Origin: Ephemerocybe angulata | Lineage: Eukaryota; Basidiomycota; Agaricomycetes; Agaricales; Psathyrellaceae | DNA: 64,000 nucleotides | Reading direction: 5' to 3' | NCBI GenBank assembly: GCA_013368325.1 | Contig: JAACJK010000229.1 | Coordinates: forward strand, 62,001 to 126,000 | Part shown: piece after piece, positions 6,001 to 61,503 of the stretch | Numbering within the stretch: position 1 is the first letter of the stretch | Layout: every line of letters starts with the position of its first letter | Made by a program: the position numbers and the translations under genes | Notes under the pieces: model-generated | Told to the model about the DNA's origin: nothing | Seen by the model: only the letters and a program-made list of their open reading frames with translations | Database searches by the model: none

Positions 6001-7305
6001 GCATATGAATCGTGTATGGAAGCACACGCCTCCACCCTAGTGATAAATTCGCTCAATGCGCCAACGATATCCCACCCATCCTATCCCAACTCTATTGGAC
6101 ATCACACAAAACTTTCCATTACTCTACATCTCTATAATCTACCCATTAGTTAACCCAGATCCAATGCACGATTGCACAAGACGACACACGCGCTTATCCT
6201 CCTCCCGACCTCCGACGCTCAGTCTATTCGTGAATTTCGTCTCAGCCTTCGCTACCCGGCTGACAGCTGTCATCCAAAGTACGTCAGACAACGTATCTGT
6301 GCGAGTGTGCAGTAAGAATAACATTGCATTCTAGACTCTAACACAGAGACGTGTGAGCGGGCAGGGGTCGGTTGACTTGGAGCTATGTTGCATGTGCTGC
6401 ACGTGGTCTGCTGGGGAGAGGTTCGGTACGTCTCTAGAGGGCAGGATACTATACTTGTAGTGCATATGTACGCGAGACTGCATTACAGATATGCCTGGAC
6501 ACTAAACTCTTAGTGTTAAGGATCAGCATACATCGTGTTTTCCTATATATGGTAATCGTCACGTTCTCTTTCCCACGGTCCCACAGCACCGCCTTGCACT
6601 GCTTTCACCGACAGCTTTGACCAGCTCCTCAGCTTTGAGCTTTTTCGAGAAAACAATCGTTCTCTGCTCCAATAGAGTCTGTAGAATGTGGTGTTCAACT
6701 TTCCGGACACTTTAATGATAACAACAGTGGAAAGGTTCGTATGCTACTTCCCATCAATTGATGGCTCCGAGTCGTTTTTCCTTCAATGGAGCGTCGGACG
6801 TGAATATTTCGGTGTGGATATCGAACCTCGTCCTGGTTCAACCAACCCTGGGTGTTAAAATAACCAGCATTTGTTTAGATCGAGGAGAAATTTGTCTTTG
6901 GGGTAGTTAGGATCTCCATAGAGCATAGTAAGAGGTAGTTTTAAGCCGGCCGGCGAGCGAGCGCGAGCACACCGGAGGTGTGCGGCAGCGAGCGAGCCAA
7001 TAGACGGATCTAGCACAAATAAATTAGATGCTCGTAGATGCCCCCGGTATCACTTGTGAGGAATGCTTTGGCCACATAACGCAGCTTCATTTGCAAAGCA
7101 CTGTAGCTGTATGAGTCAGTTACTCAATTGTACCTACGCCTGTCTCATGCTCGTTCGGCATTTCAGAATCGTTTCCCATGGACCCTATGATGTTCTTACA
7201 AAGGAGAGGCCTCGTCAAAACCCCTGTCCAATACCTGCACAGAGCGGTGGCCAGGTGCGCGCGGCTAGCGCAATGATCATCCAAAGTACGTGGTCGTGCT
7301 CGGGG
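3100..7305. other. gene-poor interval
   Basis: No open frame shows a recognisable domain, convincing codon pattern or splice chain. It contains several short GC-rich inverted repeats, for example GCACACC/GGTGTGC around 6973-6990, and many GTAAG- or GTACG-like donor sequences on the minus strand between 4300 and 5200 without matching coding potential. It is best read as decayed repeat or intergenic DNA. Confidence 0.5.
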
Positions 7306-7320
7306 GGTAACCCTTAGAAG

Positions 7321-7383
7321 ACAGGTTGGTCCAAAGTCGACCAACAGGTTGGAAAATGATGTTCCAACCTGTTGGGTAATTTT
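7321..7383 (+). repeat. left terminal inverted repeat
   Basis: Aligned without gaps to the reverse complement of 22700-22762, about three quarters of 63 positions match, including the blocks GGTTGGTCCAAA, TCGACCA and the distal GTTGG-AATTT. The arm itself contains shorter palindromic copies of ACAGGTTGG/CCAACCTGT, so it can also fold back on itself. Confidence 0.85.
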
Positions 7384-7689
7384 CAATATCCACGTGTCCT
7401 CTCTGATGTTAGACTACACCTGAATCATCACATTCAGTAAAGTTTGTATTGACTCAATAAGACTTTTGACAAAAGTGAGTTCGTGTGATAACAGCGTAGT
7501 TGAACCTGCAAATCAATCTATATACCTAAGCCGATATGCAGGCAGGAAACCATCGCAATCCAACTGTGTCCCCAAGCCGATTTGCAGGCTGGAAGTCACC
7601 GCAATCAAGCTACGTCTGTTCTAATGTTTATTAGCCGGTCTGACCAGTCGTGGGGTATATAATAAATGGTATATAATGGTTAGATGTGC

Positions 7690-8530
7690 ACCGAGCCTGC
7701 AAATTGGTTAAGGATAGAAAACGCTCGCAGCACACTGAGCCTGCAGATCAATGAAGCTCAATGAAGATGATGACTGTCTAGTGAGCCTGCAGATCCGTTA
7801 AACTCCACGTATGCCTGCTGGATGTCGAGCCTGCAAATGAGTTAGATAAACTGGCTGTTATGGAGAGCCTAAAAATAAATTATGGCACATGGTATTGCTG
7901 CAGGGAAAGCCTGCAGAAGCGACTAGTGATAATGTACCAAACCACGGCGCTGAGCCTGCAGATCTGACTAGTGAGAAAGAACACATGCCGTAGCGCTTAG
8001 CCTGCAGACTGATTAGCGACTGAATAGAGGTGCTGTCGCACTGTGCCTGCAAACCGATTAGCGATGGGTGAGTCTTGCTGTTGCGCCGAGCCTGCAGATT
8101 GATTAGTGACTGAGTATTTCTGCTGCGGTGCCGAGCCTGGAAACCGATGAGCGATGGGTAAGTCCTGCTGTTGCACCAAGCCTGCAGACTGGTTAGTGAC
8201 GGAGTACCGTAGCCGTAGCGCCGAGCCTGCAAACTGATTAGTGACAGAATGTTTCTGCTGTTGTGCCGAGCCTGCAGACCGATTAGCGACGGGTAAGTCC
8301 TGCTGTTGCGCCGAGCCTGCAGACCGAGTAGCGATGGGTAAGTTCTGCTGTTGCACCAAGCCTGCAGACTGGTTAGTGACGGAGTACCGTAGCCGTAGCG
8401 CCGAGCCTGCAAACTGATTAGTGACAGAATGTTTCTGCTGTTGTGCCGAGCCTGCAGACCGATTAGCGATGGGTAAGTCCTCCTGTTGCGCCGAGCCTGC
8501 AGACCGAGTAGCGACGGGTAATAACGCAAT
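7690..8530 (+). repeat. left sub-terminal array, 45-bp units
   Basis: About 19 units of roughly 45 bp, each starting GAGCCTGCAGA or GAGCCTGCAAA followed by a variable ATTAGYGAYGGRTA-like segment and a TGCTGTTGYGCC segment. From 8000 to 8500 the spacing is exactly 45 bp, and one block of two units is itself duplicated. Because 45 is a multiple of three, all frames look open here, but this is not a gene. Isolated copies lie further out at about 7500-7600, some inverted. Sub-terminal repeats of this kind are typical transposase-binding sites. Confidence 0.85.
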
Positions 8531-8792
8531 AAGGCTTCGCCGGGCGCTTAATCTGGAGAAAGTCTCACGGTGTTAGGGCCCTCAATCCAAACACAGGCAA
8601 GCAAGACAATTGAGCCCGTCGCCTGCGCGCTAAACTTTAACTTGAGTGACTTGCAAGCCTGCAAACCCTCCTAACAGAGTATGGCATCAGGTGGGATTCT
8701 TAACAGGGCACAACATGGCGGTCTTCGAAATTATTTTCCTTTCACCACCACCACCACCACCCCCCAACCATTCCCGTCGCCGCCGCCTCTCC

Positions 8793-9165
8793 ATGACCGA
8801 CCCCGCTCCATCGACCCAGAAGCCGCCCGCTCCAATTGTCAACGAGAATGGAGATCTCGAATACGAGATCGACCGCATTTTAAACGCGAAGCTGGTGCGC
8901 AAGCCAGGGCGTAAGCGACGGGACGCCTGGTATCTCGTGAGGTGGAAAGGTTACGGACCCGAGGCCGACACTTGGGAGCCTCATATTGAACTAAAGGAGT
9001 GCATGGCCCTTGAAGTATATTTTAGCTGCTATTCGCAGGTACGTTGCTCCTTGCGTTGTTGTATCGGCGTTGACCACTAATATAATGCACATGCAGACGC
9101 GCTACCGTTACTACTGGGACTCAAAATACTCCACCCGACGCTGGACACATCCTCCCAGCGTGTAG
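8793..9165 (+). CDS. small chromodomain protein
   Basis: Two exons, 8793-9038 and 9097-9165, joined over a 58-bp intron, give 104 residues. Residues 23-63 form a chromodomain: EYEIDRIL opens it, then AWYLVRWKGYGPEADTWEP. Residues Y24, W51 and Y54 occupy the positions of the HP1 aromatic cage that holds methyl-lysine. The C-terminus after the intron is short and basic/aromatic (TRYRYYWDSKYSTRRW). An in-frame ATG at 8715 would add a Pro-rich leader; I chose 8793 because the protein is then typical for the family. It lies between the left repeat array and the tail of the convergent large gene, and could tether the element or its products to methylated histone H3. Chromodomains also occur in Ty3/gypsy integrases, but no integrase flanks this one. 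Confidence 0.82.
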
Positions 9166-9624
9166 TGATTCAGTTTCAAGTAGAGCTATTTATCTATGAT
9201 CGGTCGAAAATGTACCTGTTTTTTTTTGTCAAGTCAGATTGAGTTCGGGCAGCTATGTGCAGTCTATTGATCTTGCATTTCAATACCAGAAATGGTGGAG
9301 TGGTTGTATTGACCAGTGGTATATCGAGCCATGCTTACAGTGTGAACGCAAGTTCGATTCGCTGAAAGGTAATTTTTTTATATCCATCAACTGCACCTTA
9401 TCCTCGAAGGCCATTACCCTACCCCGTTTAAGTCATAACTGCTTAGTGCTATTACCTGGCCTTACCCAAGTTCAGAACCTCCAAAAAACAACGATGAAGC
9501 TTGGATGAAGCATCCCACCAAGGCTCTGTCGTAAATCCGACGAAATTCCGTGCGCGCGCAATGTGATCAAGAAGAATTTCTACACTACCGCGTCGCGCGA
9601 ACGTACATGCAATATAGCTAGTGA
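9166..9624. other. non-coding spacer inside element
   Basis: Between the ends of two convergent genes. AT-rich, with a run of T at about 9220-9230. No coding signal is seen. Confidence 0.5.
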
Positions 9625-12201
9625 CTAGTCCTCACCAGAGCTCGACTCAATCACACTGCCTTCATCATCATCCTTGCGCTCGTCATCCTTGCGCTCATCG
9701 CCCTTGCGCTCGTCGTCCTTGCGCTCGTCTTCCTCCTCCTCCTCCTCACTGTACTCGGAAGGTTCGGTCCATGGCGTGTCGGATCCCAGATCCCAGACTG
9801 TCAGAGTCGCGGAAGCGATTGAGAGCGCGGAAATGAGAATACGCCGACCTTGCATGGCGCAGAGCCCTCCTCCGTCCACTGATAGTTTTCCCGTTCCTAT
9901 CCACCTTGAAGAGATTGTCGACTTGACCTCGACCAAGAAACTTGAAGACAGTCACAAGCATTGCACGGTCTCTTGGAGTGAAAGCCGCACGCCTGCCTTT
10001 GCCCCACCGCTCTCGGATCTCCCCGTCCTCGATCGACTTGATACGCAATGACTTCCAGATGCAGAAGTCGATGATAACGTCGTCCAAAACGCAGCCGCAG
10101 TGAAGGGTAGCGATGCCGCTTGCAGTTTTGGGAAAAAACTCCAAGACGCGCTTGAGTGTGAAGTTGGTGTTTGAGTACTTCTTGCTGATGCGATGTCCAG
10201 GGGGAGCGGGATCACGTTGGAGGTAGGATGGATTCCGTCGAGCTGGGACGTCCTTCAGAGGGGCGAAGGGAACACCAGTGATCTTGTAGGTCTTTCCCTT
10301 CTCTTGGATGTTTTCGTCGTGGAGAGACTGCTTGCTGTGGTCGGTAAGAGTGTGGTAGTGACAGCAAGTCCGGCCATTTTTGAGGATAAAGAGGGAGGCC
10401 GTCGTCTTGTATGAGTACGTCGCAAGGTCAGGAGCTAGCTCAGGGGCCCGCCGCATCCAGCAGCAAATCTCGTTCGGGATAGGTTCATTCTTGTTGACCA
10501 TCCTATGGTAGAACTTCTTTGCTTTTTCTGAAAGCCAAAGCATGAGTAACAGTGAACGAAAAATGAATTGCGAACACACTTCTGAGCGTCTCCTGCTTCT
10601 CCTCGGAAAGGTTCCACCATCGTTCTCCGAGGCGTTTCTTCCCTCCGTCGCCGGCTTTCTTTTGTTTTCGCAGATGCCTCGGAAGGGGCTCGCCGTCCTC
10701 ATCCACGGAAGCGTCGGGGTCGAAGTCAGAGTCGGCGTCGCTTTCGTCACTTTCTTCGTGGTCACTTTCATCTGTCCATTCGTCCTCGTCAGTGAAGGTA
10801 GCTTCATCACTGCTCTCCCCACTGTCATGTCCAGCGAGATAACCGTTGACTGCGTCGGTGACCTCGCGACCGCCCTAAGCCAATCATAAGTAATTGATTA
10901 AGAATACACCCAGCTCTAAAACGCACCATGATATAGACTTTCTGGCCCTCCTAACCGGGAGATAATAAACTCGATGTTAGTAGATAGAATCTCATGTAAG
11001 GAAACACGACGAACCATGGTATAGAGAACTTCCATGCCTGGGAGAGGCTTCTCCTGCTCATCATCCGCTTCCCCCTCTTCTTCATCTGAAAGCTTGGGCT
11101 TCCGTCTCGTCTTTGGCAGGGGACTCTTGCTATGCTGGACGGCGTCTTCCTTCGGAGTCCTAGGTGAGGGATTCTTGGTGTGATGAATGTCGTCCCTTTT
11201 CTTGAGAAACTCCCTCGTTGGAATCTTCAGCTGCCGTGGGCCGAGTGGCGTTGTTGATTTTGGGGTGGATCCGGTGCTCACAGGCCTGGGTGGTGTCGAT
11301 GGCCTGGGCGGCGTAGAAGGCTTCGGGGTGGGCTGGGGCACGGCGAGTGGTCCAGGCGGAGTTGCCGACACCGCAGTGGGCGTAGTGACAGGCAGTGGCG
11401 TCGCAGTCGTGGGCGCTGTTGTTGGTACTGTGGTTGACGACGTCGACACCGGGGTGGGCGTATTGACAGGCAGTGTCGTCACCGTCGTGGGCGCGATTTC
11501 CCCAGCCTTGGATGGCGACTTTGAGCTTGTGTCGGGTGGCATGATTGGCGTTCCCTGGCGCGAAAGAGCGAGGGGGCTTGGAAGGGGTGTGAGATCAGAC
11601 CCAGCATCGGAGGCTTGAGTACGAGGTGTGGTAGGCATGTTTGTATCTAGTTAGCAGGTAAAGTAAGTTTATGCCGTCGTGCAGTAATCGACTTAGCACT
11701 TACTATTCCTGTTCCCTGAGCTTTGAGGCTGGGTGCGCAGACGTTTGGGTGGAGGCGAGCCAGAGCCATTCGGGCTTGCAGGGCGCTTGGACGTGACGCC
11801 GGCTCCTTGCTTCTTCTTCAACGCAGCAAGCCTGGCTGAGAGGCGTTTGATGTTCTGTTTCAGAGCCGTGAGCTTCCTCGTAGTCATGCCCGCCGATTTT
11901 CCATCGTGCTGGGCTAATCCAAAGGTCAATAAGCATCCAGCATACGCACACAAGGCCAGTAGAACGACGTACCTTTAAAATGAGCACGCTTCCCTTCCAG
12001 TATTGCGCCATGGGCAGAACACGCATTGAGGTGCGCTTCGAGGGCAGCTGGGGGCAGCACTGATATGAGCGTTGTCTGTGAACGTTCTGAGACAACGTTA
12101 GTAGCCTCCCCTCACAACTCAATCAGTTTGGGCTTACCAAATCTTGTCACGTCAATGTTCATTTCGTTTTGCTCTGGGTCTGGAGGAGAGCTATTGGCCA
12201 T
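9625..12201 (-). CDS. large acidic coiled-coil protein of the transposon, unknown function
   Basis: I do not recognise a domain. Exons chain in phase from an ATG at 12201 (MANSSPPDPEQNEMNIDV). In order they encode a short LEAHLNACSAHG segment, a basic coiled coil (TTRKLTALKQNIKRLSARLA), a PPPKRLR nuclear signal, a long Pro/Thr-rich linker, a conserved-looking MVRRVSLHEILSTNIEFII segment, an Asp/Glu-rich stretch, a folded-looking region of about 200 residues (NEICCWMRRAPELAPD through VIIDFCIWKSLRI) and a terminal Glu/Asp/Lys tail ending in ESSSGED. An ATG at 11638 could start a shorter form, and the last two splice sites are uncertain, so two genes remain possible. The composition suggests a nuclear, chromatin- or DNA-associated protein. 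It is convergent with the chromodomain gene. Confidence 0.6.
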
Positions 12202-13285
12202 GATGAGCAGACTAACGGTGTGTCGACGCGTCGCCGAACGATTTTCTAAGCTATGTCAGATTCAAACCGGACGCCCAGCGGTTCGTGAGCCATTGGTTGG
12301 TTCGACTTGGTTGGTGCCCGGCGGCTGAAATGCCTAAATCGGGAATTCTCCATCCTCTTTGGGCCTACCGCCGTCGGGCCGTCGGCTAAGGTGGTCCAGA
12401 TCCAAGGTGGGCTCAGTAGGGCTCAGTGGGGTGATCTCTGCTCATTTAAGTGTATCCACAAGCACTCTGAAGCTATGGGGGTATTTTAATAAGAAGCAGA
12501 CAGCCCTAAGAGGGGAGTGTACACGTCTTGGTCCCGTTCTGGTACTAGAAACTTTGCGCCTGAGCGACTCTGAGCGAGCGCCTCGAGCCAACTTCCATTC
12601 TCCATTGCGGATCAATAGAGTCAGCCAAGCGCAATATCCACATGTCCAGGGGGCCAAGGGCGCGATAAGGGCGCGATGCCGCCCAGGCCCGAAAACACCC
12701 TGTCGGCCTACGATGCAAAAATAGACGCCCGGCGCTACAATTAGCCTGCGGCACTTTGCTATAAGCCGTCTGCTTCAACGCAATGCCTGCCACTATAAGC
12801 ACGATATCGCAACAATATAGCGTAGAAGTAATAGTATTGAAAGTGCACCAGGGCACTTTCTGAAGGTGGTCCGTTCAACTCTCGATGTAGCCTTTTACAA
12901 ATATTTTTTACCCGCAATTCTCCAGAGCGCGATCACTGACCGAGACGCTGATCTGGTGCAATGGTATCCTCGGCGTTTGACCTTTTCTTCGTTCACACTG
13001 ATGCCTCGGGCAGGAGCACTTGAAGCACTAGCTACTGCCTGCGACGAGGCTCAGCGCCTAGAAAAGCGCCGCGAACAAAGCCGACAGTCGACCGAGAAGA
13101 ACTACAAAAAGTACGATGGTATCTTAGGTTTGCTAAAATAAATGTTGAAGGCAATGTAGGGACATTCTTCGCTCTCGAGAAATGGCCCGGCTACGCAAGC
13201 AAACTAGCCGTGCTAATATAAAAGCGTCAGTATTGATACCTCCCTAGATATTATCACCGCACTGACGACCCTTCACGGACTGTAG

Positions 13286-13722
13286 GCGGAAAGCTGCACA
13301 AGGTCGTCCTCCAGAATCTCCTTCAAGTCTTCCCCCTTCATCGCCTCCACGGCCATCCTCTTCGTCTCTCCCGCCAAGCTCACCACCTGCTGCGTACGAC
13401 CAGATACCGACACCCCCGATAGAAGTCAAATTGCCCAGATTGCGTGCCCGTCCAACGAAAACAGACCTACAGGTGCTCAAAAGCCTCCCTCCATCACACG
13501 CCGAGTTTGTGCGCAACATCATGTCTCTTGCTATTATGGAGCAGCAAAGAAGGATAGTCTTGTCAAGGTGGGTCCTCCACTTCTGTACTCCTCAGCATCC
13601 TTTAATCAAACGGCAGGGACTGGGAAGGAATATGGGACCACTGCTACAAAGCGTTGGCCGAGGAATCAGACATTGCGTGGGATGACTTGTTTCGAGTGGG
13701 AAGCTGGGAGAGCGACGTCTAA
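13286..13722 (+). CDS. small unknown protein of the transposon (3' exons)
   Basis: Two exons (13286-13567 and 13617-13722) join in phase and end in TAA. They encode a Ser/Pro-rich segment, then LPRLRARPTKTDLQVLKSLP, SHAEFVRNIMSLAIMEQQRR and, after the intron, DWEGIWDHCYKALAEESD ending in SWESDV. The helical, Trp-containing C-terminus looks conserved but I cannot name it. A likely upstream exon near 12990-13116 encodes a Glu/Arg-rich helix (ACDEAQRLEKRREQSR) ending in a GTATCT donor, but the phase needs a further small exon, so the 5' end is unresolved. Confidence 0.5.
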
Positions 13723-14215
13723 GACCCATTTGATTAAATAGAGCTATATACTGTCTATCTGAGTGACGAATAAAGGCTCGTTGAGCGATGTGTTCAATGG
13801 TCAATGAGTAGGTCAGTGACCGGTCAGTGACATGTCACTGACCAGAAATGTCACTGACCACAGAAGTCAAACCCCCTTTGTGCGCCCTCCTGGCCTCGCG
13901 TTTCCACTATTTTAGTATATATCAGAAGCTACGGTAAACGTCTATCCATTAGTGTAGCACTTTCGTTAGAAAATGGGCTTTAGAAAATAAATATGTGTGG
14001 GCCCATCTGTGCGAGCATGGCAAGATTGATCTCTAGTTCAGATTCTACCACTAAGTGTCGGACATGGCATCCATTTGCCTGTCAAATTTTCTAACACTGT
14101 TCTACCTTCTATATCACAATCGTTGATGTTATGCAGCCTAATATTGATAACTGGGGCCATATTCTATACAGGTCCAAGAAAAGATACAGAATGAGTATGC
14201 TACCATAACGTTACA
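13723..14215. other. spacer with inverted GGTCAGTGACAT motifs
   Basis: Between convergent gene ends. At 13809-13862 the motif GGTCAGTGAC occurs twice directly and twice inverted, enough to form alternative hairpins. No coding signal is seen. Confidence 0.5.
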
Positions 14216-16147
14216 CTAAAGCCTCTCATCATCGGCGTCCTCCATAGCATGGTCGTTCAAGTCCTGTCCCGTATTATCAAACTCTGCCTGGCTTTCAACC
14301 TTGACCTCGCCAAATGCCAGAATCTCCTCTATGGTACTCCACAAGGCAAGACCCTTCTCCCACCTGAACGCCTTTCGTGCCATCATATCCTTCCACAGAT
14401 CCTCGTCATAGTCCTTCAGCTGCTGTTCGGTACGGTAGCCATTGTCAGCGTGGCGGAATAGAGCCCCCGAGGTAAACTGAGTGAACGAAACACGAATCTC
14501 TCCAGGCTGGATGGCCGTGTTTGAATGAGTGAACACCGCTGATGGAAGCAATATGCACGAGCCGGGGGGGAATTCAATTGCAACGCCTAACTCCTCAATG
14601 ACGAGATGCCCGCCAAGCTCGTAGTCGAAGTCGCCGAGGGCGGTAACTGCACAGAACCCATAAGGAAGATTCATGCAGTCGCGATGACGAGCGGTTACCG
14701 TCTGAGGGCCAAAGTTGAACGCCGCTGCAGAGAACACGCTTTGGTCAAAGTTCCAGCGAAGCTCTGGCATGTGTGCCTCTACGTCTCTACGAAGGCCGTG
14801 GTATTTCTTATACAGATTGGGTAAAAACATGTTGAAGGAAGCTAAGAGTGCAGAAAATGGTAAGAATGTGACCTCCACGGGCGAAGACGGGCGACATACC
14901 ACTTTGGAATAGCGCCAAGCGTCTGATGTCTTCGTTCTCCAGCAAACACTTGAGCATGTCCTCGTGGCCTGGATTTTGGAGGTTGTAGGGTTTAAGAGGG
15001 CCCTGGCCGGCCATGACTCCAACGTTCAGCGCCCCAAACCCCTTTCCGCGCTTGTGGTCCTTGTTGAACTTTCGGTTGGCGCCAGCGTTGAGAATGGCCT
15101 GGCACGCGTTGTTGTGCGATTTGGTGAAGTCCGGGCTGTCGATGCGGCCAGCTCCAGCAACGAGGATGGCGTCGGTGACGGGATCGGTGAGGAAGAGCGG
15201 GTCGCTAAGAGGCCTGTCAGTTCAGCAGATAGAGGAAGGGGGGATGTCGCTTACATGCCATTCCATTTCACCAAGTCGATGCCCTCGGCCAAAACCTCTG
15301 TGAGGGTGCGAGTGGCCTTTGGGCCAGAGGATCCCTTCGGCTTGGCCTCGTAGGCGGTGGAGGTAGTGGGCAGCGAGTCGACGTCCACTTCGCGTGGGAG
15401 AGGCTTTCCAGAGCTCTCAGATACGTGCTTCTTGACGACGCTTGGGCGGGGCGGCTGGCCACTTGCAGCAAACATGTTCGCTTTCTCGAGCTTGCGTTTC
15501 TTCTTCTGGCGTTCCTTATCACGCTTCGTCCTTTTGCCGGCGGAGGTGAGCTTTGTGGGCGGCAATGAGGTAGACGACCCAACAGGGCCGGAGTTAGGGG
15601 GCGCTGATGCTCCAATCGGAGGCTCGGCGTCTAACTTATTGGCGCTGGCGTACCCTGCGCCTCTCTCAGCCGTATTGTGCTTGGTCTCGTCGTCCTTCAT
15701 ATCCGTCGCGTCGGTGAAGGCCCTGTCGAACTCGGCAAGCGATTCGAGAAGCGCAGGGCTAACGGAACGGTTGATGAAAGGGCTGGGAGCTGAGTGCGCG
15801 TTAGAAAAATGAAACGCGGTGGCGTTCGTGCCCACGACGTGTACATGCCCGAAAGACGCGTCGGTGTCTTGTACAGGCCTGGTGGACGCGTCGTCACTGA
15901 GTTCAGGCTTGGTGGACGCGTCATTGTCGAGTGCAAACGAGGTTTCGATGTCGACGACGTCCTCATTCTCCAACGCGGCGGCAAGAAGGGGAGCGACGGA
16001 GAACGCGGGGTTGGGGGCGGGCGCCGATGTGAACGAAGAGTAAGTGCGTCCCTGAAGGGTTGCGAATGACTTTGAAAGCCCCGGTTAGCCAGCAGTCTGT
16101 GGTATTCACCTAATAGCACGCACCACTGTTGACGAGAAGAACTTCAT
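14216..16147 (-). CDS. TET/JBP-family 2OG-Fe(II) dioxygenase
   Basis: Four exons (16124-16147, 15255-16051, 14900-15213, 14216-14841) join in phase to 586 residues. The first 270 residues are disordered, with Ser/Asp/Lys-rich tracts and a strong bipartite nuclear signal (GKRTKRDKERQKKKRKLEK). The catalytic domain spans about 275-500 and contains the double-stranded beta-helix signature: HRD (H431, D433) and H484 in FTHSNTAI as Fe(II) ligands, and R495 in GEIRVSF as 2-oxoglutarate ligand. The intervening GDFDYELGGHLVIEELG and FPPGSCILLPSA match the fungal TET/JBP pattern. Such enzymes oxidise 5-methylcytosine, or thymine in JBP. All catalytic residues are present and no frame break is seen. 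It is encoded inside the KDZ-like transposon, as described for basidiomycete TET/JBP genes. Substrate is inferred from the family. Confidence 0.88.
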
Positions 16148-16724
16148 GGCTGCAGAAGGTGCGCACGGCTGGTTTGTGCGGCGTTTCGAAGCCCTTCAAA
16201 AACAGTCAGAACGCGCCGTTAGCGGCTGTGCTAGAGCCGCCAGCTCACCAGGAAGACGAGGGTCACCAGGAAGACGAGGGGCGGGTGTGGAGACTGGGCC
16301 GGGCTATTCAGGCGGCTTGGGGCCCTCTGCAATGAAATATGAGCACAGCGGGCCAAAGAGCAGAGCACATATACTTCTGTAACTCACCGTAGAAATTGCC
16401 GAGTTGATAGTAGTGTTCAAAGCAGAGGGGGGCACAGAAAGTGGGGTGGAGAGTGTAAGATATGGTATAGGGCTCGTCCAAGTGCGTCCGCCTGCTCCAA
16501 TCCGTGTACGATGCCGGGTGTGGCTTCAGAACCGGGGGAGCGCAGCGACGTGGCAGGGGTAGGGCCCGATTGAAGTGACGGTTGAAGAAGAAGATGAAGA
16601 AAAAAAAACACAAACAGTGGGAAAACGATGGACATAGAAACGTAAACGCCGCCAGCGGCCAAACAGGGGCTTCGATCAATTATGAAACGCGACGCGTGAC
16701 GGAAGTCGCGTCAGTCGCGTCAAT

Positions 16725-16815
16725 GATCAAAAAAGAATGGCCTTGGTGATAATCGAACACGGGCCCTCCAGCTAAGGGCGTCCAGCACAATGCCGCTCAG
16801 CCAACCGGGCATTCA
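16725..16815 (-). ncRNA. tRNA-like Pol III unit (SINE or tRNA relic)
   Basis: On the minus strand an A-box-like TTGGCTGAGCGG is followed 40-50 bases on by a B-box-like GTGTTCGATTATC and then a run of six T (16725-16730). These are the internal promoter and terminator of a Pol III gene. The acceptor and T stems do not pair as in a working tRNA, so it is more likely a tRNA-derived SINE or decayed tRNA. It lies in the spacer between two cargo genes of the transposon. Confidence 0.4.
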
Positions 16816-16992
16816 TTTGGGGGTGCTAGACATTGCTAAGGCCTTGCCGTATTGCCGCCCAAAAGAAAGAAAAAAAAAAGAGACAGGGGCAGGCGCATTG
16901 CCATCGGACGTCATGCTCACAGGAGGTACGGAGTAATGGTAGTGTATTGAAAAGACCTCTATACTAGTGCTGTATCTACTTAGTAACGTATC

Positions 16993-18227
16993 CTACGGCC
17001 CACCCTGCTGGAGAAGAGCGTTACGGGCGGATGTTTGAGTAGCCATGATGGCGCGAAGGCGAGCAATCTCATCCTGGGCGCGCCGCGACTCCTCCTGTGC
17101 CTGAGCTGCGGCATCGTTAGCCGCTCTAACACTCTCTGCCGCCTCTGCTTGCACGCGTACAATGTCGAGGCCGTAGGCACGGTCAGCCTGCTTGACCATA
17201 GACATCGTCTTCGACACGTTCTGGTGGATTTTCTTGAGTTCTTCAGGCGCGTCTTTTCGAAGCTTGCGCGACGCGTAGCTAATAAAGGGCGCCTTCGATC
17301 CTGGGGTCTGCATGGCAATGTACACCCAGCTACTTGTACGGTCCCCGAGATCTTGGCACTGAGCAAAGTTGAATGGTAAATGTAAGTCAGTTTTGATAAG
17401 TATTCGAGAAAGATTGGAAGACGTACACGGGTGAGAAGGTCCTTGACGCCGTAGTTGAATGCGCGGGTTGCCGCCTTTCGTCCGGCGTATGGCTTCTTCT
17501 GGTGGCGAAGTCGTGGAACAGCTGCGCGTAAAAGCCAAATAAGTTAGTAAATTAGAATGAGACGCTAGGAGATATGTGTAGTATACGTACAAAACTCAGC
17601 GCCGCCACGAAGGGCTCCACTGATAGTCTTGAAGATGGGGCTTTTCAGAGAGGGGTAGAGGCGCTTGGGAGACCCCGGTGGCGAAGATGACGCAGGGGAT
17701 GATGGGGGAGGAGGAGTAGGACTGACAACGGGCGGGGATGATGGAGGAAGTGGGCCGACAACGAGCGGGGATGATGGAGGAAGAGGGCCGACAACGGGCG
17801 GGGATGTTGGAGGAAGTGGACCGACAACGGGCGGGAGTGGAGGCTGGGGAGTGCGCGGCTGGATCTGAACTGTGGGCCCATGCGCCTGGGGAGCGGTCCG
17901 ACGAGGGGTGCTTGGATTGGGAGCGGAGATCGCGGCAAGCTCAGGATCGAGCCATGATGGAAGGTCCAAATTTGGAGGGGAGGGGAGCTGCGCATGCGAC
18001 GGCGAGGCAGGCGACGAGGGAGTCTGATAAACTGGTTAGTACGACGGCGTCCTCTGTGAAGTATTGAATATTGAGCGTACACTTTTCTTAGCCCGACGAG
18101 TTGATTTGGGGCATGCGCAACTGGCCTTTAAGACGTTACCAGGGCAGATCCGGCACCTGCGAGGGGCGCGAGGTGCTTTGACTGGCGAGGATGACGACCG
18201 GCCACGGCGTGAAGGCGTTGTAGCCAT
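16993..18227 (-). CDS. Cys-cluster/coiled-coil protein of the transposon, unknown
   Basis: Four exons (18081-18227, 17591-18023, 17427-17521, 16993-17358) join in phase to 346 residues. The N-terminus is basic and SPVKAPRAPRR-like, followed by a compact CRICPGNVLKASCACPKS cluster that could bind zinc. A Pro/Ser linker contains the repeated peptide VVGPLPPSSPP. Next is a basic segment HQKKPYAGRKAATRAFNYG, then a globular stretch (CQDLGDRTSSWVYIAMQTPG) and a long C-terminal coiled coil rich in Ala, Glu and Gln. No known family is recognised. It is transcribed divergently from the transposase with 312 bp between start codons, so the two probably share a promoter region. The layout suggests an oligomeric DNA- or chromatin-binding accessory factor, which is inference. 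Confidence 0.65.
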
Positions 18228-18539
18228 GGCGCAGAAGCTAAAAAGGTGGGATTCGATTCAGGAAGGGGGAAGGGGGAAGGCCGTGAAGAAACATAAAAAC
18301 TCGGGCGATTTTATAGGGCGATAACTTCACCCTGGCCGATCGTCTTCAAGCGCTTATCATAGGCACATACGGGCAACATATGGGCCAGGGCGGTTGCCGT
18401 TGGCTTGCCGTTCGCATTCTTTAGCCGCTTGTGTCGCCTAACAGACGAGCCGGCTATCGTCCAAAATGGGATAGTGAGCCACCCTAAGCTCTACTGAACC
18501 AAGGGTTTTTGTACGAACCTCTAGATCTTCTTGGTGAAT
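18228..18539. promoter_or_regulatory. divergent promoter region of transposase and coiled-coil gene
   Basis: A 312-bp intergenic stretch between two divergent start codons. No clear TATA box is seen. It is the only upstream region for both genes, so co-regulation is likely by position. Confidence 0.4.
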
Positions 18540-21500
18540 ATGGCGCCCAAAAAGTCGCAACGCGTTGTTCCAACAGAGGCGGTCTACTCATCTGACGAAG
18601 AAGTGGACGCCTTCCCTGAACATTTATTAGAAGAGGCAAAGGATGATGTCTGGCAGTCGCCAGTCAAAGCCACGAAAGCGTACCGGATTGACCTCAAGCC
18701 TCGCGTTGGAGCAAAACGGAAGCGCCCAAACAATGCACCACCCGTCCAAGCGGTCGAGGATATTGCTGCTGTGCTTTCAGTTGAAAGCGAGCTTTGGGAG
18801 GATGATTTGGCATTCTCTGGAGGGGATGGTGGATGGAACGATGGAGGGTTGGGAGAGGGGATGACAGGTATAGAGGACTCAGGGTCACGCGCTCCGACGT
18901 CAGAGTCTGTCACACTGGGCGAGTTTGAATTCTCGACAGAACAACTTCTCTATTATCACAGCGTGGTCAGAGCGGGGGCAGCAGGGATTGGGTATATTGA
19001 AGACAATGTCTTCGCTGTGGAGGGCTGGAACGTCCATCGGGAGCAAGCGACGGTAAGTACTTCCGACGTCCACTGTCCTGGTCCCCAGTTCTGCCAGATA
19101 ATTGTTTAACTGACTCTCGACGCTTGTGTAGGGAATGTGGTACCATCTTGAGTACCTTGTCGTGGAGGGAGAGGAGAAAGACGCAGAAGAGCTTGCTGTG
19201 GGGTGCACATGCCCTGCTGGCCTTCGGGAAGGCTACTGCATACACATCGCCCTCGTTAAACGCTTTGATGTTCGAGATATCCGTGGGTATGCACAGGCTG
19301 TTGCATCGGATGGTACGCCCTCATGTGGTTCTTTTTCTTCAGTCTCAAGTTGACTGACATCGGCGCCCAGAGCTCACAATTACCATGTTCTATCGCGAGC
19401 GTATAGAAGAATCCGACGAATTTCTTACCCTGTTCTCCGTCCGTTCCCACTCGCAGACTGGTGCAAAAGGAAGGGCGCTTGTGAAACACTTGGGCAACTG
19501 TCCGTCAACTGGCCAGTGGACTTGCTCTAAGTCACACACGAAGAAAACGAAATGCGCCCACGTCCCAGCAGCAACTAAAGTATTACGCGAGGCCCTCAAA
19601 CTACCTTTGGATACGCCTATCCATGAAACACTTGGAGGATTGGATCTGGGTGCCTTGGAGAACGGAGCGGAGGGTGTCCCAGCCGCTGTAACTGGTGGTG
19701 AGGCCCTCATTATCCCTTTGCAGAAATCCCGTACGCCATTTTTTGAGCTTTTATCGTTGAATTTCAGTAACTAATCCATAACATCGACCTTTAGCTGCTA
19801 TGTGTCTCCAGGGATCTGTTTCGTATCGCCCTATACTACCTCCATTGTCATACGTCCTTCCATCCGATGAGACTCTATACCCCCGGCCGCCCCCATTTCG
19901 CAATGCACCTGCTGCCCCATTCCCCCTCGACCTCACTTCTACCTGCCCATGTCCACTTCCTCTGCGCTCGTCATTCGACCCTCAACGGACACCGTCTCGC
20001 GAAGTCCACCCCTGTCGTGTGTACACAGTCCTTGGCTGCTACACTGCACAGATCGAGCTTCAACCGTGCCCCAATTGCTATTCACGAGGCGAACATTTCA
20101 TCGGGCCTGATTTGCGCGATATCGGTTTATTTAACTACGACAACACCACACTTGTTAGCCATGAGCTGCTGGACGAATACACGGTCGCATACTCAAGCTC
20201 AGAAACTCCGTTCACTGCCTTTGTCGCCCAGATGTCCCACCGCTACTCGAGCACTACAACACGTTTTATGCGCTCGGATCTGTTTCGCCCCATTTGGTTT
20301 GCCTACGTCTCCGTCCAGGCATTCGAGAAGGATATGTCCTGTGTCCGATGCGGCACCTCTCCGGAAACGGTTATCTGGGATGGAGTTACCGTTGCATTTG
20401 ACAAGAATCGCCTTGCGTCAACGCTCGCCCCTCCAACACAGCTCACTTCCCAGTCATTTCGGCGTCCATTGGTCAAGAACAAACCAGGGCAGCAGCTCAT
20501 CAAGGACGCTACCCTCCGCAAGCAAATCCGAGCAATAATTGCTACTCTCAAGGATCGTGTTCGGGCCGCTGCCCCAGAGGACAGTTACAATGACTCAGGG
20601 CTACCGCAAGATACCGCAATACCCAGCGAAGCAAGCGAAGCTCTATGCGCCGACACTGTTCTCTCGGACACGCAACGGATAGACGAGGTACTCCAATCCT
20701 TGTCAAGCCTTTGTCCAGCCGTCTGCACACTATTTATGGAGTTCTGTGGCTACGCAGCCTATGCAAAGAGGCGGCCGCCTCCGCCCCTCTTTCGATCATT
20801 CTTCCTTCAGGTGCGTGCCAAGTCAATGCTCGTCGGTTTCCTGAAATAAACTGAAGTATACCACATTAGATCGCCGCGGAGGAATCAATCTTACAAATGG
20901 TTAATGGCTCAGCACTGAGGCTGCTCCAGGTGTTCCTTGAAAACCCTCAGCATGGTCTTATCACGCAGTTACTGGGCATTCCAGGGATCTATCTTCTCTT
21001 AAGGAAGTACCCTGGCCGTCTCCACGCAATGGTCCCTATTCTTCGATGGATAGCTGAGCGAGCAGTCGTTGTTTTTGAAGCCGTGAGAGTTGATTCCAGG
21101 CCAATCCCAATCATCTCAGATGCCGAAGCTTCAGCCTTAAATTGGCGTTTAGTACGTCTTTCGGGCCTCACTTTCTATGAAGCCTAGGCTGACGACGTTT
21201 GTAGACCGGCTGCTTTTACAGCCTACCCCAGCTACGCTTCCGCCCTCGCTATGAGAATTTGATTAGCGATCGAAGCAAGGTTGACTCGTCAAGAGGCGGA
21301 GATACTTGTGGGAAGTACTTCTCGGAGTATGGCGAGGCAACACTCACCGGCGGAATAATGGCAGCATGGTGCACTCATAGTGTGTGCTATGGCTTCCACT
21401 GCATCCCCTCAAGTGAAGGGCGTAACGACGTCTTCTCGGCACTCATCACACGGTGGCCGGTTGCTCCCAAAAGGATCATCTACGACTTTGCCTGTGCTCT

Positions 21501-21795
21501 TGGCCCCTACTGTCTGTTGAGGGAGCCTGACTTCTTCAAGGACACTGTATTCGTTATTGACAAGTTCCATTCTATGGGCCACACCAAGTGCAGCCCTGCA
21601 GCCTTCCTTCAGCAGTATTCCGACGCCGACCCCCGACTAATTCACATCAATTCAAGCGCCGGCGAGAGCGGAAACAGCTCTTTGAAGCGTATACGCAAGT
21701 CTCTCCGATACATGACTCAAGATCATGCTATTGTGTATACTAAAGTCTTTCTTTCTATGTGGAACCGCGCCCGTATCTTGAAAAAGAGGCTTTAA
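18540..21795 (+). CDS. KDZ-like transposase with SWIM-type zinc motifs
   Basis: Six exons (18540-19052, 19132-19312, 19371-19730, 19795-20810, 20870-21151, 21205-21795) join in phase to 980 residues. The N-terminal 170 residues are acidic and disordered. Residues 196-209 form a SWIM-type CxC...CxH finger (GCTCPAGLREGYCIHI), with a second CxH cluster near 275-295 (WTCSKSH...KCAHV). CxxC pairs follow in exon 4 (QPCPNC, CVRCG) beside WDGVTVAF. The C-terminal catalytic region contains IIYDFAC (D878), FVIDKFH...GHTKCS (D903, H906) and SAGESGNSSL (E938), the acidic and histidine pattern of Kyakuja-Dileera-Zisupton transposases and the related HMGXB3/CxC5-CxC6 group. It should cut and join DNA at the element ends. 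Its 3' end abuts the right repeat array. Which acidic residues are catalytic is inference. Confidence 0.85.
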
Positions 21796-21869
21796 TATAT
21801 ATATATCCTTTCTACATGTCCTTCAAGTCACACTTAGAGACGAGGTATTGTTGTTTACAGGCTTGTATC

Positions 21870-22215
21870 CCACCGTACCGCGGTCTAAGGCTACGGCGTT
21901 CTGCAGGCTCGCGCTCCCATCTGCCGCGTCTAAGGCTAGGGCGTTCTGCAGGCTCGCGCCCCCGTCTGCCGCGTCTAAGGCGAGGGCGTTCTGCAGGCTC
22001 GCTCCCCAGTCTGCTGCGTCTAAGGCTACGGCGTTCTGCAGGCTCGCTCCCCAGTCTGCCGCGTCTAAGGCTACGGCGTTCTGCAGGCTCGCGCCCCAGT
22101 CTGCCGCGTCTAAGGCTACGGCGTTCTGCAGGCTCGCGCCCCAGTCTGCCGCGTCTAAGGCTACGGCGTTCTGCAGGCTCGCGACCCACCCCGCCGCGTC
22201 TAAGTGGTAGGGTGT
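21870..22215 (-). repeat. right sub-terminal array, 45-bp units
   Basis: Eight tandem units of exactly 45 bp, each containing TTCTGCAGGCTCGC, the reverse complement of the left-array core. Units differ at only a few positions. Single outlying copies of the TGCAGG core follow at about 22410, 22525 and 22572 on the way to the right TIR. The array starts about 75 bp after the transposase stop codon. Confidence 0.85.
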
Positions 22216-22699
22216 TCTGCAGGTCAGTGTACATTTCGGCTGATTAACGACAAGCTACTCATCCTATGCCCTGTACCATCTTTACGAACCGGAATAGTCT
22301 ATCTGTAATCAGAGGGCAATATACCGGCTAACGAACACGACAAGCAACGAAGTTCGACCCTGGAGTAGGCTACATTTTTATTTTGCCGTGCTCTATATTG
22401 TAAAGGCTTCTGCAGGCTAGAGTGTCCTTGACATTAATTAAGCTCACTGGAGGCCTACTTCCGGCGGGGCAACCTATCGTCGAGCCCCCCACCACCTGCA
22501 CAACGGCTTATGCATTAAGTCGGTTTGCAGGCTGAGAGTACCCGGAAACTCTACCTTGCCCTAAGACAGTCTGCAGGTTTAGGATAGACACTATGGGCCC
22601 TTCATTACCGTTACATTCTGCTTATATGACTCAACATCGTTCACTGATCCATTGAGCTCTTATTGTAGTGTCTTATTGTAATAATCACACAGCATGCTC

Positions 22700-22762
22700 C
22701 AAATTTCCCAACCTGATGGCCCATCATTAGCCAACAGGCTGGTCGAGTTTGGACCAACAGGT
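22700..22762 (-). repeat. right terminal inverted repeat
   Basis: Partner of 7321-7383. Read on the minus strand it begins ACCTGTTGGTCCAAAC and ends GGTTGGGAAATTTG. Differences from the left arm are scattered substitutions with no gap needed. Confidence 0.85.
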
Positions 22763-25700
22763 TAACCACGGCCTATCTGGTGCTCGGGGAGTGGAGAAAT
22801 TCATAGTTGGGCGCTTAAAGTGACCGCAACGGAAATAGACTATGATGTGAGTTCATTTCCGCATTTTAGGCTTTGAATAGACTTGGAATGCATTGCCACG
22901 GACTCGAGAATGACATGTTATACTATCTATTGGTGTCAAACTGCATTAGGAAGCTTGAATGAATGCATGACCCATTCGTCCACAATGCAGATCCAAGCCT
23001 GCGCTGCATGCGAGACTTGGGCATTTCAAGCTTGTGCACCCAACCGAATTCCATGTTCTTACCTCGTGTAGATGGTCCATGGAGATGTTTTGGAGCTTTG
23101 CCATTACAAGACGATACGCTACGCATGCCAAAATGGCTCGAACGACCGGACGTGTGCAACCGGCAATTCCGACGCAATCTCGAAACTCAAAGTCAAGCCA
23201 ATTCTTCGCACAGCTGCCTTCACAGATGACACTGCCAAGACATATGATCCGAGCATATACGGCAGAATTGAATGATACGTTTGAGTTGTGCGAAACTCTG
23301 CAACGCCTGTAGGGCGTCAGTACGATAAGTAATTTGGATACGATCGGATTTGGGCGTCGTTCAATTGCACTGTGCCCTTGAAGACTTAGACATGAATTTG
23401 GGGGACTGTATGGTATATCATGAGCTTCCAAGGCGTTTATAGAATACGAATATGTAGAGCTTATGGATAGTTTCACTGGAATTTGCGTTAAAATAGGCAA
23501 TCGCGAGGTTAGGCGCTTGGGCGCCTAATTCAGCGGAACGGTATATCGACGCTTTTCCGACAAAGTTTCTTCATGACATCATTTTATATTGCAATTGTGT
23601 ACACTGTCTACGTTATAACATGGGACTACGTAGTCTAACCTATCCCGAAGAATGCGCGAGAGTTCAACAAACCCGCCGAAAGGGGCCAAGTTGAACTTCG
23701 GCAAAGGAAAGCCCCCGAGTTGAGCTCGCGCGCGTCGCTGACACCACACGGCAGTTCCACGATGTCACGTACGTATACGACGTACTCCTCAGGAATGTTC
23801 AATGTTCTCTAATCTAACGAAATGGAACACTGATGCCCGCGCGCGTCGTGACAACGAGCTCATTCAAACGCGATCATGCGCGCCCACGTCCCGGCCGACT
23901 CATTCCCATGGCACGCTGTGCTATGCCGAGGGTCTGTGCTGGTGCCGAACAGTCGTGGATAGACGCGTCGGTGACGCCGGGGCAAGGCTGGGAATGTTGA
24001 AGTCTTCTTAATGTGGACGCGAGGACTGCGATAAATGTACGTACTTATGTCCCTGCATAGCGACTTACTTCCCGCGCGATCGGCGTGTACCTGGAGGCAA
24101 ACGGACTGTCAGTCCCGCTTCTGGAACAAGGTGAATGGCCCCTTACCTTGATTGCGACTCCCAGAGACTCGGATCTAGGACACAGAGCTACCCTAGTCCA
24201 GCCCACCGCCCGAAAGCCCAACCATACGTCCGCATCCGGAATTCGGATGCGATGCGGGACTCCGAGATCAACACCCCCATCACGCTCACACTCTCAACAG
24301 AACATCTGCGCTAAATATACATAAGGTATGTATGTGGGTCGAGGCTCTGAACAACGCCACTACGCGCGACGTGGCTCGCGAAGTTTGCGCGAATCGGGCC
24401 CTATGTGACAAAGTCAAAATTAAAAAGGTACCGAGGTGACGTACCATTGCGCTTCAAGCGAACATCGCCAAGCTAAATAGAGTCTTTGGGTGAGATAATT
24501 AGTGGGTGACGGAATGGTGTGCGTACCGAGTGAGAGCTGGCGTCGTGGGCGACCCGTGGATTTCTAAAATGACCCAAGTCGGCGACGTGAGGCACCGCGG
24601 TATTAAAAATAGAGACTATACCCTGTCAAATTAGAGTTAATTTTGACGTGCAACATTCAATTTAGTTAGAGGGGGGACGTACGATGATGAGGCGCCGGTA
24701 GTGGCTGGGTTTCCCAAATTCCACATTTGGGACTTGCGTGCAGCGTGGTGAGGTCGGTGGGCGCGAAAGAGTGCCGGTGCCTGGTGAGTCGTTGGCACAG
24801 AACAACTATTTACAGAATACGTACGAGATGAACGATGACGAGGCGCTGGGTAGACCACGGCAGCCGAGGTCCCGATTTCCGCATTTGGCGCTCGCGTCCA
24901 CCGTGGGTGTGGCGGGATGACGGAACTCTACAGTCGGACATGAGCAAATGAGGATGGAAGTCAAAGCAACGGGCTCACTGTTGTCGAAAATGCGATCACA
25001 GCGAGTGCTCGCGCAGCTCCAAAGACGGGCGCACAACGCAGGTGGCGATATTCGTACCCTGATCTGAGATAAGCGAACCGTACTTGAGGGCGAAAAAAGG
25101 GCTCACCGGGTGCCAAAACCCTCACCATCCAGAGTGCCTGCGCAGCTCCCAAGACCAGAGCGCGCCGTACGACTGTCCGTGGTAGCGATTGAGTTTCTGG
25201 AATTCCGCATCTGGGACTGGCATGCGGCGTAGAGATGTCAGTGTGCGCATCGAGGTTGCAAGGCTATTTTTGGAAAATACGTACCTGCCCGAATCTATGC
25301 ATCTGCGAACCTAATCAGGATATGAGCGAATGGGGATGTGCGTCAAAGCAAAGGGCTCACCGATGTCGAAAATGAGACCACACAGAGTGCTCGCGCAGCT
25401 CCAAAGACCGGAGCACGGCACGGCACTTGCTCTACGATACATGAGATCAGCGAAAAGGACTCGAAATCGAGGAAACAGACTCACCAAAAGCTAGAATGAA
25501 ACCATTCAAAGTGCTTGCGCAGCTCCCCGCGTCAGACCATCATCGTCTGCTGGCTTGGGGAAGTCGAAAAAAGGGCTCACCGAGGGCCAGAATGGAATCA
25601 TTCAGAGTGCTTGCGCAGCTCCCCGCGCTAGACTAGCATCGGCTAGTTGACCCCCGAGGTCGTTTCATGCGACATGTGCGAGTGATGGAAATGTAGGAGA

Positions 25701-61431: not shown

Positions 61432-61503
61432 TACACTGAAGGGGAATCGAACCCCTGCCGCTTGCTTGGAAGGCAAGCATGATAACCACTTCACCATCAG
61501 TGT
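61432..61503 (-). tRNA. tRNA-Gly(UCC)
   Basis: A 72-nt cloverleaf without intron. The acceptor stem ACACTGA/TCAGTGT pairs at all seven positions, the anticodon stem is CTTGC/GCAAG with loop CTTCCAA (anticodon TCC, glycine, codon GGA), and the T arm is AGGGG/CCCCT around TTCGATT. Discriminator base is A. The D arm carries AGTGGTTA as usual for eukaryotic tRNA-Gly. Confidence 0.92.

Follow-up and report, generated by a model that had tools for sequence, protein, structure and literature searches.

The locus studied here raises the question of whether a single DNA transposon can carry, beside its transposase, the means to manage its own epigenetic state. It lies in a 64-kb stretch of the Ephemerocybe angulata genome (C150:62001-126000, hereafter the window), where an original prediction had placed a transposon with a KDZ-like transposase, a TET/JBP dioxygenase, a chromodomain protein and three proteins of unnamed families, here U1, U3 and U4. 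The genome that we searched comprises 58.67 Mb in 232 contigs, and because genome-wide searches scored the best candidates only, the counts given below are lower bounds. The locus is a mobile unit that shares its ends and its kit of genes with other elements of the same genome; dN is below dS in the five genes for which both could be computed, and its sequence is a mosaic. We consider it probable that the unit is an autonomous cut-and-paste transposon of the KDZ superfamily, belonging to a CxC4 branch, in which a core is joined by an optional pair of dioxygenase and chromodomain genes with an anti-silencing function.

Ends of the element and its subterminal repeats

The original prediction was of a complete unit, mobile and delimited by defined ends. 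This is borne out by the ends themselves, by the target duplication and by the further elements that the genome contains (Table 1). Its terminal inverted repeats, said to match across 63 bp, need correction. Inverted repeats exist at these positions, but 7321-7383 and the reverse complement of 22700-22762 are identical at 48 of 63 positions, and the true ends lie 17 bp further out, the repeats beginning inside non-inverted termini. The match is nevertheless far beyond chance, with maxima of 35 in 300 shuffles and 37 in 294 random pairs of real 400-bp pieces of the window. The left flank of a second element, C107, aligns with the window about 17 bp beyond the inverted repeats, and the ends were therefore placed at 5'-GGG[T/C]AACC...TATCTG-3' with an outer direct repeat, as in the window and in a third element, C185.

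The 10-mer GTGCTCGGGG occurs at only two sites in the window, 7296 and 22780, and we take the leading 8 bp of it to be the target duplication. The direct match is longer than the duplication because the leading G's of the element extend it; it measures 10-11 bp in the window, C185 and C125a, where the G run and the final G of the element would account for the surplus. A target duplication of 9 or 10 bp was ruled out by C107 and C125b, both of which set the length at 8. The duplication of C125a is likewise 8 bp with G matches in addition. That of C125b is the 8-bp ACCGGTTT, but ACCGGT also occurs within its own repeats, making it a weaker witness alone. The 8-bp target duplication of the KDZ superfamily, as in Zisupton and KDZ1, is thus found in the window element.

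The end rule, GGGG...TATCTG plus the duplication, was derived from two elements, those of the window and C185. From the left flank of C107 we predicted its right flank as TATCTG followed by ACCCTGGAG before that stretch was read. This sequence was absent from the first C107 stretch searched (up to 2 mismatches). In the next stretch, with 3 mismatches allowed, the predicted end was located at C107:90421 with a single mismatch in the last base, and one other site with 3 mismatches occurred elsewhere. The rule fits all five elements with both ends read (window, C107, C185, C125a and C125b). The GGGG end is on the transposase side in C125a and C125b and on the opposite side in the window, C107 and C185. 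A second copy with such boundaries had been called for, and C107 is one that follows the same end rule. We find it hardly credible that the locus is instead an immobile chromosomal gene cluster between unrelated repeats. Against this stand the target duplications, the end rule common to five elements, the prediction of one end ahead of its reading and the presence of the elements in unrelated places, whereas the search for an empty site, which found none in this genome assembly, and the repeated nature of the left flank itself would fit it.

Inverted 45-bp arrays had also been foreseen, and both are present with a common core in opposite orientation at the two ends. All 27 occurrences of the core AGCCTGCA[GA]A in the window fall in the two subterminal stretches, 17 on the plus strand and 1 on the minus strand at the left and 9 on the minus strand at the right. 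In other superfamilies the transposase usually binds to subterminal arrays of this kind, and by analogy the 45-bp arrays may be bound by the transposase of this element.

Table 1. Features of the window, with positions counted from its first nucleotide
Feature	Position	Strand	Remarks
Whole transposon	7304-22779	+	15,476 bp; termini 5'-GGGGTAACC ... TATCTG-3'
Left target site duplication (as read)	7296-7303	.	8 bp, GTGCTCGG; match of 10 bp when the leading G's of the element are included
Right target site duplication (as read)	22780-22787	.	GTGCTCGG
Left subterminal inverted repeat	7321-7383	+	48/63 identical to right repeat
Right subterminal inverted repeat	22700-22762	-	Pairs with 7321-7383
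Left 45-bp array	7999-8521	+	11.6 copies; core AGCCTGCA[GA]A
Right 45-bp array	21878-22223	-	7.6 copies; same core, inverted
Free-standing chromodomain gene	8793-9165	+	104 aa; 2 exons: 8793-9038, 9097-9165; Pfam Chromo 2.5e-10
U1	9746-12201	-	719 aa; 6 exons: 12138-12201, 11973-12086, 11704-11913, 10927-11646, 10580-10849, 9746-10527
U4	13001-13722	+	About 165 aa; first splice junction uncertain
Putative recombination junction	14204-14273	.	C107 39-69% identical per 300 bp to the left, mostly 87-96% to the right
TET/JBP-like 2OG-Fe(II) dioxygenase	14216-16147	-	592 aa, HRD...H motif; 4 exons: 16124-16147, 15255-16069, 14900-15213, 14216-14841
U3	16993-18227	-	348 aa; 4 exons: 18083-18227, 17591-18031, 17427-17521, 16993-17358
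Transposase	18540-21795	+	970 aa, CxC4 and KDZ; 6 exons: 18540-19052, 19132-19282, 19371-19730, 19795-20810, 20870-21151, 21205-21795
tRNA-Gly (tcc) gene	61432-61503	-

Genes of the element and their recurrence in the genome

Gene models were built by hand and with a home-made spliced aligner that penalises stops, and they use short GT-AG introns. The transposase had been called apparently intact and KDZ-like, which agrees with its open frame. It matches Pfam CxC4 with 144.3 bits (cut-off 26.9, E 2.4e-42) and Pfam KDZ with 19.1 bits (cut-off 26.6, E 0.0012, residues 823-961), or 23.7 bits (E 4.6e-5) when a single exon is the query. The KDZ-associated cysteine cluster, for which CxC5 and CxC6 had been proposed, is present as CxC4, and the KDZ family is matched below its cut-off.

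The count of six genes with three unknown proteins also stands. U1 has a basic N-terminal part, Pro-rich and acidic stretches, and a conserved C-terminal domain with CxxHT, TGVP and HCGC, in which T-x-C, HT, TGVP, HCGC and F-x2-WK are invariant across eight sequences. An apparent extra gene, U2, was rejected as a separate gene since it had no relative even in C107 and a good splice joins it to U1; we take it for the 5' portion of U1, and the joined model mirrors the layout of a 745-aa Candolleomyces protein. Fold prediction for U1 failed (mean pLDDT 35.9). U3 has an N-terminal Cys cluster, a Pro-rich middle and a conserved C-terminal domain with 14 invariant columns among seven sequences, and it is divergent from the transposase, with 312 bp between their starts. 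A single-sequence search for U3 homologues found none and a profile search found one; the named relatives of U1 and U3 come from Candolleomyces and Coprinopsis. Neither protein matched a Pfam family above cut-off, nor did the U4 copy of C107 match any Pfam family, and the U1 and U3 profiles found nothing below E 0.1 among solved structures. We also considered U3 as a MADS-box protein and rejected this, as comparison of 7 U3 sequences with Pfam at E<=1 gave no MADS family.

Transposase, U3, U1, dioxygenase and chromodomain gene are all present in C107, C185, C125a and C125b, with 33-94% identity to the kit of the window. Their order is chromodomain gene, U1, U4, dioxygenase, U3 and transposase in the window and C107; in C185 it is chromodomain gene, U1, dioxygenase, U4 (on the other strand), U3 and transposase. 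C125b reads chromodomain gene, U1, dioxygenase, U3 and transposase, and C125a differs from it in having the chromodomain gene between dioxygenase and U3. Of the compared stretches, C107, C185 and C125c contain U4; the last lacks the dioxygenase, and thus U4 is seen in elements with and without the pair.

Across the genome, 55 CxC4 matches formed 52 loci, 57 U3 matches 55 loci and 53 U1 matches 50 loci. U3 lies within 6 kb of 46 of the 52 CxC4 loci and U1 within 25 kb of 27, always upstream and on the opposite strand, where 1% and 4% respectively would be expected by chance; the predicted co-travel of unnamed genes is thereby upheld. Thirteen of the 25 CxC4 loci without U1 are on the plus strand less than 11 kb from a contig start, where the usual place of U1, about 9 kb upstream, falls off the contig or at its edge. 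The dioxygenase lies within 15 kb of five CxC4 loci, and a free-standing chromodomain gene occurs at the same five and at no other CxC4 locus (62 dioxygenase matches, 32 by protein search and 30 by Pfam, and 112 chromodomain matches were used). At a sixth locus, C152, the chromodomain match is inside a 1331-aa open reading frame and is not free-standing. C186 carries the chromodomain gene, U1, dioxygenase and U3, and its contig stops 0.7 kb past U3; it was counted together with C185 because an 800-bp piece of C186 shares 132 bp with it at 100%. Accordingly, the core of this branch is transposase, U3 and U1, and a subset of its elements adds a TET/JBP-like dioxygenase with a free-standing chromodomain protein. 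This recurrence ties U1 and U3, two unnamed protein families, to the transposase and suggests that the KDZ branch needs helper proteins.

Could the chromodomain gene, U1, U3 and U4 be chance passengers without a role, in an otherwise ordinary TET-carrying KDZ transposon of the published kind? We regard this as improbable. Such transposons do exist in Agaricomycetes, according to the available text of PMC12730594, and 22 of the 30 Pfam Tet_JBP loci of this genome have a KDZ or CxC4 match no more than 12 kb away, a distance that takes in 5.9% of the genome (104 of the 150 KDZ matches listed, second matches of the same loci being among those dropped, and 50 of the 55 CxC4 matches were used). On the other hand, the CxC4 transposase is repeatedly accompanied by U3 and U1 in a constant relative orientation, the free-standing chromodomain gene accompanies the dioxygenase, and the ratio of nonsynonymous to synonymous substitution rates (dN/dS) is well under 1 for U3, the chromodomain gene and U4. 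Between the window and C107 this ratio is 0.10 for the transposase, 0.18 for U3, 0.28 for the dioxygenase, 0.11 for the chromodomain gene and 0.17 for U4, and there are no stops in any of these genes or in U1, as read with the stop-penalising aligner. Nineteen of the 22 Tet_JBP loci are convergent with the KDZ or CxC4 match and 3, including the window and C107, are divergent.

Blocks of CxC4 transposase and U3 were also seen near many contig ends (C223, C147, C66, C126, L024-L028 and others). Contig-end copies are near-identical, C223 and three others sharing 99.85-99.96% over 6.5-10 kb (against C223, 99.95% over 6.5 and 7 kb and 99.85% over 10 kb), and they are therefore not independent witnesses, for which the diverged elements are better. 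The blocks are possibly a chromosome-end KDZ array; TTAGGGTTAGGG or its complement was absent from the first 10 kb of two contig-end copies.

The dioxygenase, the chromodomain gene and their proposed role

The dioxygenase frame is open over 592 aa, and Tet_JBP is the sole Pfam family matched, with 24.9 bits (cut-off 34.9, E 1.3e-5), or 26.8 bits when a single exon is the query. Its metal triad HxD...H is present, since HRD and the distal H align with AG-type sequences of the same genome, and an Arg follows the distal H as a putative ligand of 2-oxoglutarate (2OG). The AG-type comparison used three sequences from this genome with the CcTET numbering of PMC12730594. Three strong Tet_JBP loci of the genome have HxD, G at 331 and D at 337, that is, the AG type. 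In the dioxygenase of the window, which reads HRDCMNLPYGFC in this stretch, the equivalent of 337 is C by residue count and T in the gapped alignment, so that Asp is absent either way; the equivalent of 331 is N by residue count and Y with an adjoining G in the gapped alignment, which has a 3-residue gap. The dioxygenases of C185, C125a and C125b carry HFD[H/Y]NNLSFGLC. The PE hallmark HxE is absent from all four, which have HRD (window) or HFD. Because the Tet_JBP match is below the cut-off, the AG Asp and HxE are lacking and no solved structure is matched, we named the enzyme TET/JBP-like. The earlier assignment as a TET/JBP dioxygenase is thus retained for the family matched and the HxD...H motif, but its score is below the curated cut-off. 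The predicted chromodomain protein is present inside the element, and homologues of its gene occur in five other elements.

The window element is like C107 in its right half only, a pattern that we interpret as recombination close to the 3' end of the dioxygenase gene. Between about 14.25 and 21.7 kb they are mostly 87-96% alike per 300 bp, with two intervals at 78-79% around the U3/transposase promoter; the likeness extends to introns (75-96%) and to an 845-bp spacer (93%), and dS of the right-half genes is 0.21-0.30. The promoter between U3 and transposase (18228-18539, 312 bp) is 70% identical between the two, below the spacer and the eleven introns measured.

In the transposase and U3 trees, the window and C107 join C185 (supports 1.00 and 0.95). 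In the dioxygenase tree they are sister to dioxygenases of six other places, L033-L038 (support 0.92; two near-identical pairs among them), and C185 groups with C125a and C125b (support 0.83). Identity between the window and C185 is 57% for the transposase but 35% for the dioxygenase, and the window dioxygenase is 52-55% identical to those of L033-L038. Considering this conflict between trees together with the identities, exchange is the simplest reading, and different lineages have likely swapped the dioxygenase; alternatively, old duplicates of it may have been lost differentially. At three of the six related places (C120, C47 and C112) another KDZ match lies 3-10 kb away, and in the 17-kb neighbourhood of C120 no U1, U3, U4, chromodomain gene or CxC4 transposase was found.

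The C107 element (C107:90421-118562; L009-L011, L039) holds a 12.26-kb retroelement whose two 495-bp terminal repeats are identical, and a further, internal pair of 332-bp repeats is 99.7% identical. The identical and near-identical nested repeats therefore indicate recent nested insertions.

In the mechanism that we propose, the transposase would use its cysteine cluster to bind the inverted 45-bp arrays, cut at GGGG/TATCTG and insert with an 8-bp stagger, and it would need U3 and U1 as partners. On silenced copies the dioxygenase would oxidise methylated bases; the chromodomain protein would either guide this enzyme to silenced chromatin or hold such chromatin open. The outcome would be an element able to be expressed, and in this sense the element may demethylate itself. 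That dioxygenase and chromodomain gene go together is seen from their presence at the same five of 52 CxC4 loci and in C186.

Several findings weigh against this proposal. On the side of the genes, KDZ and Tet_JBP are both under the Pfam curated cut-offs and CxC4 alone is far over; the dioxygenase matches no solved structure, TET included, at E<=1 in a sequence search; and it lacks the Asp at 337 that CcTET needs for 5-methylcytosine, while one AG residue depends on the alignment. The CpG content shows no loss of the methylation type, and thus gives no sign of the need for demethylation that we propose. On the side of the kit, U3 is missing in range at 6 of the 52 CxC4 loci and U1 at 25, no CxC4 is in range for 9 of the 55 U3 loci and 23 of the 50 U1 loci, and 26 of the 32 dioxygenase matches of this type lie outside these elements. 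U4 was not found in C125a or C125b, and the order is not fixed, the chromodomain gene being displaced in C125a and U4 moved and flipped in C185. As to evolution, dS is near saturation for the chromodomain gene (2.1) and U4 (1.4) and is not computable for U1, and the supports behind the exchange are 0.83-0.92.

The points on the dioxygenase also bear on its substrate. If this were RNA, protein or a different base, not methylated DNA bases, the element would be no anti-methylation device, and we take this as a serious possibility without favouring it. The sub-cut-off Pfam match without a match to solved TET, the missing Asp as compared with AG-type relatives of the same genome, and the lack of CpG loss are all in line with it. 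The kept HxD...H with its following Arg, Tet_JBP as the sole family matched, the association with DNA transposons and the chromodomain partner speak for methylated DNA. The ratio of observed to expected CpG was similar, at 0.89-1.00, whether measured in elements that carry the dioxygenase, in two stretches holding dioxygenase-free elements (20-kb pieces including flanks) or in a nested retroelement. This test of methylation history gives no support either way for an element that manages its own epigenetic state.

Ty3-type integrase chromodomains are a device for insertion into safe havens. The chromodomain protein could in the same way steer insertion into silent chromatin and not reverse silencing, and many other chromodomain matches of this genome, which are in open reading frames over 1000 aa and likely belong to Ty3-type polyproteins, as well as the C107 copy being itself a landing place of nested retroelements, agree with this. 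We consider it unlikely, as the gene here is separate and is near CxC4 loci only with the dioxygenase, and targeting alone would not need a dioxygenase. Our preferred reading remains the anti-silencing pair. A further step, tentative and rather doubtful, would be to see in it an exchangeable two-part kit of a chromodomain reader and a new TET-like eraser, the eraser being swapped between lineages while the reader stays, with U1 and U3 of the core as new transposition proteins.

The field has yet to explain why mushroom genomes contain dozens of TET genes. In the family described here, some elements carry the TET-like gene, together with a chromodomain gene, and the others do without it. As both kinds coexist in one genome, they provide a natural comparison for whether transposon-borne TETs protect their carrier from methylation.

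Elsewhere in the window, adjoining open reading frames at 31222-32837 (minus strand) match GCR1_C (1.1e-13) and NDC10_II (1.7e-8), a combination that recalls Crypton-type tyrosine recombinase elements. Dispersed copies at 2257-2798 and 28720-29260 are 86.7% identical, and a 180-bp tandem duplication at 30087-30444 is 96% identical.

Comparison with known systems

The element had been called a possibly undescribed system. TET-carrying Kyakuja and Zisupton transposons with defined ends were described in Agaricomycetes in 2025, and escape from silencing was proposed for them (Kojima 2025, PMC12730594); therefore, that part is not new. In the literature searched, as far as its available texts go (including PMC12810828, PMC7641404, PMC7473861 and PMC8290104), we met neither the three-gene core nor this type of dioxygenase nor its chromodomain partner. 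The word 'chromodomain' is not in the main text of PMC12730594, and no KDZ element with a chromodomain gene was named in the titles and abstract beginnings of the literature searched, from which subscription journals are mostly missing; one review there, PMC13297926, contains both 'chromodomain' and 'dioxygenase'.

According to the available text of PMC12730594, the TET-carrying Zisupton and Kyakuja elements resemble ours in joining a KDZ-type transposase and a TET/JBP-family gene in one DNA transposon, but the window element has CxC4, GGGG...TATCTG, the U1/U3 core and the chromodomain gene. Kyakuja has a 7-bp duplication, CA..TG termini and no inverted repeats, and it is not matched by an element with an 8-bp duplication, GGGG..TATCTG and inverted repeats. 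Zisupton, described with an 8-bp target duplication and terminal inverted repeats, is a possible assignment: the window element has an 8-bp duplication and inverted repeats, but the latter are set 17 bp inward of its termini, which are not inverted. KDZ1-KDZ3 of Cryptococcus neoformans likewise have a KDZ transposase, terminal inverted repeats and an 8-bp duplication (4-8 bp in KDZ2/3) in about 9-11 kb; unlike the window element with its CxC4, they have CxC1, and no TET or chromodomain gene is named in the available text (PMC12810828).

Among the dioxygenases, CcTET and the AG-type TET of Coprinopsis cinerea are alike in being 2OG-Fe(II) enzymes with HxD linked to KDZ transposons (as described in PMC12730594); the window enzyme differs in lacking Asp at the place of D337, and at Gly 331 it has N by count or, in the alignment, Y beside a Gly. 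With neither the AG-type Asp nor the PE-type HxE, it differs from the AG and PE types described by Kojima (PMC12730594). In a wider sense, the anti-silencing proteins of plant VANDAL elements and the SET-carrying HarbingerS/MuDR elements are, like this one, cases of chromatin or methylation factors encoded by transposons, as outlined in the same source (PMC12730594). Those are other transposon groups with other proteins and with one such factor named, whereas the element described here would combine an eraser and a reader.

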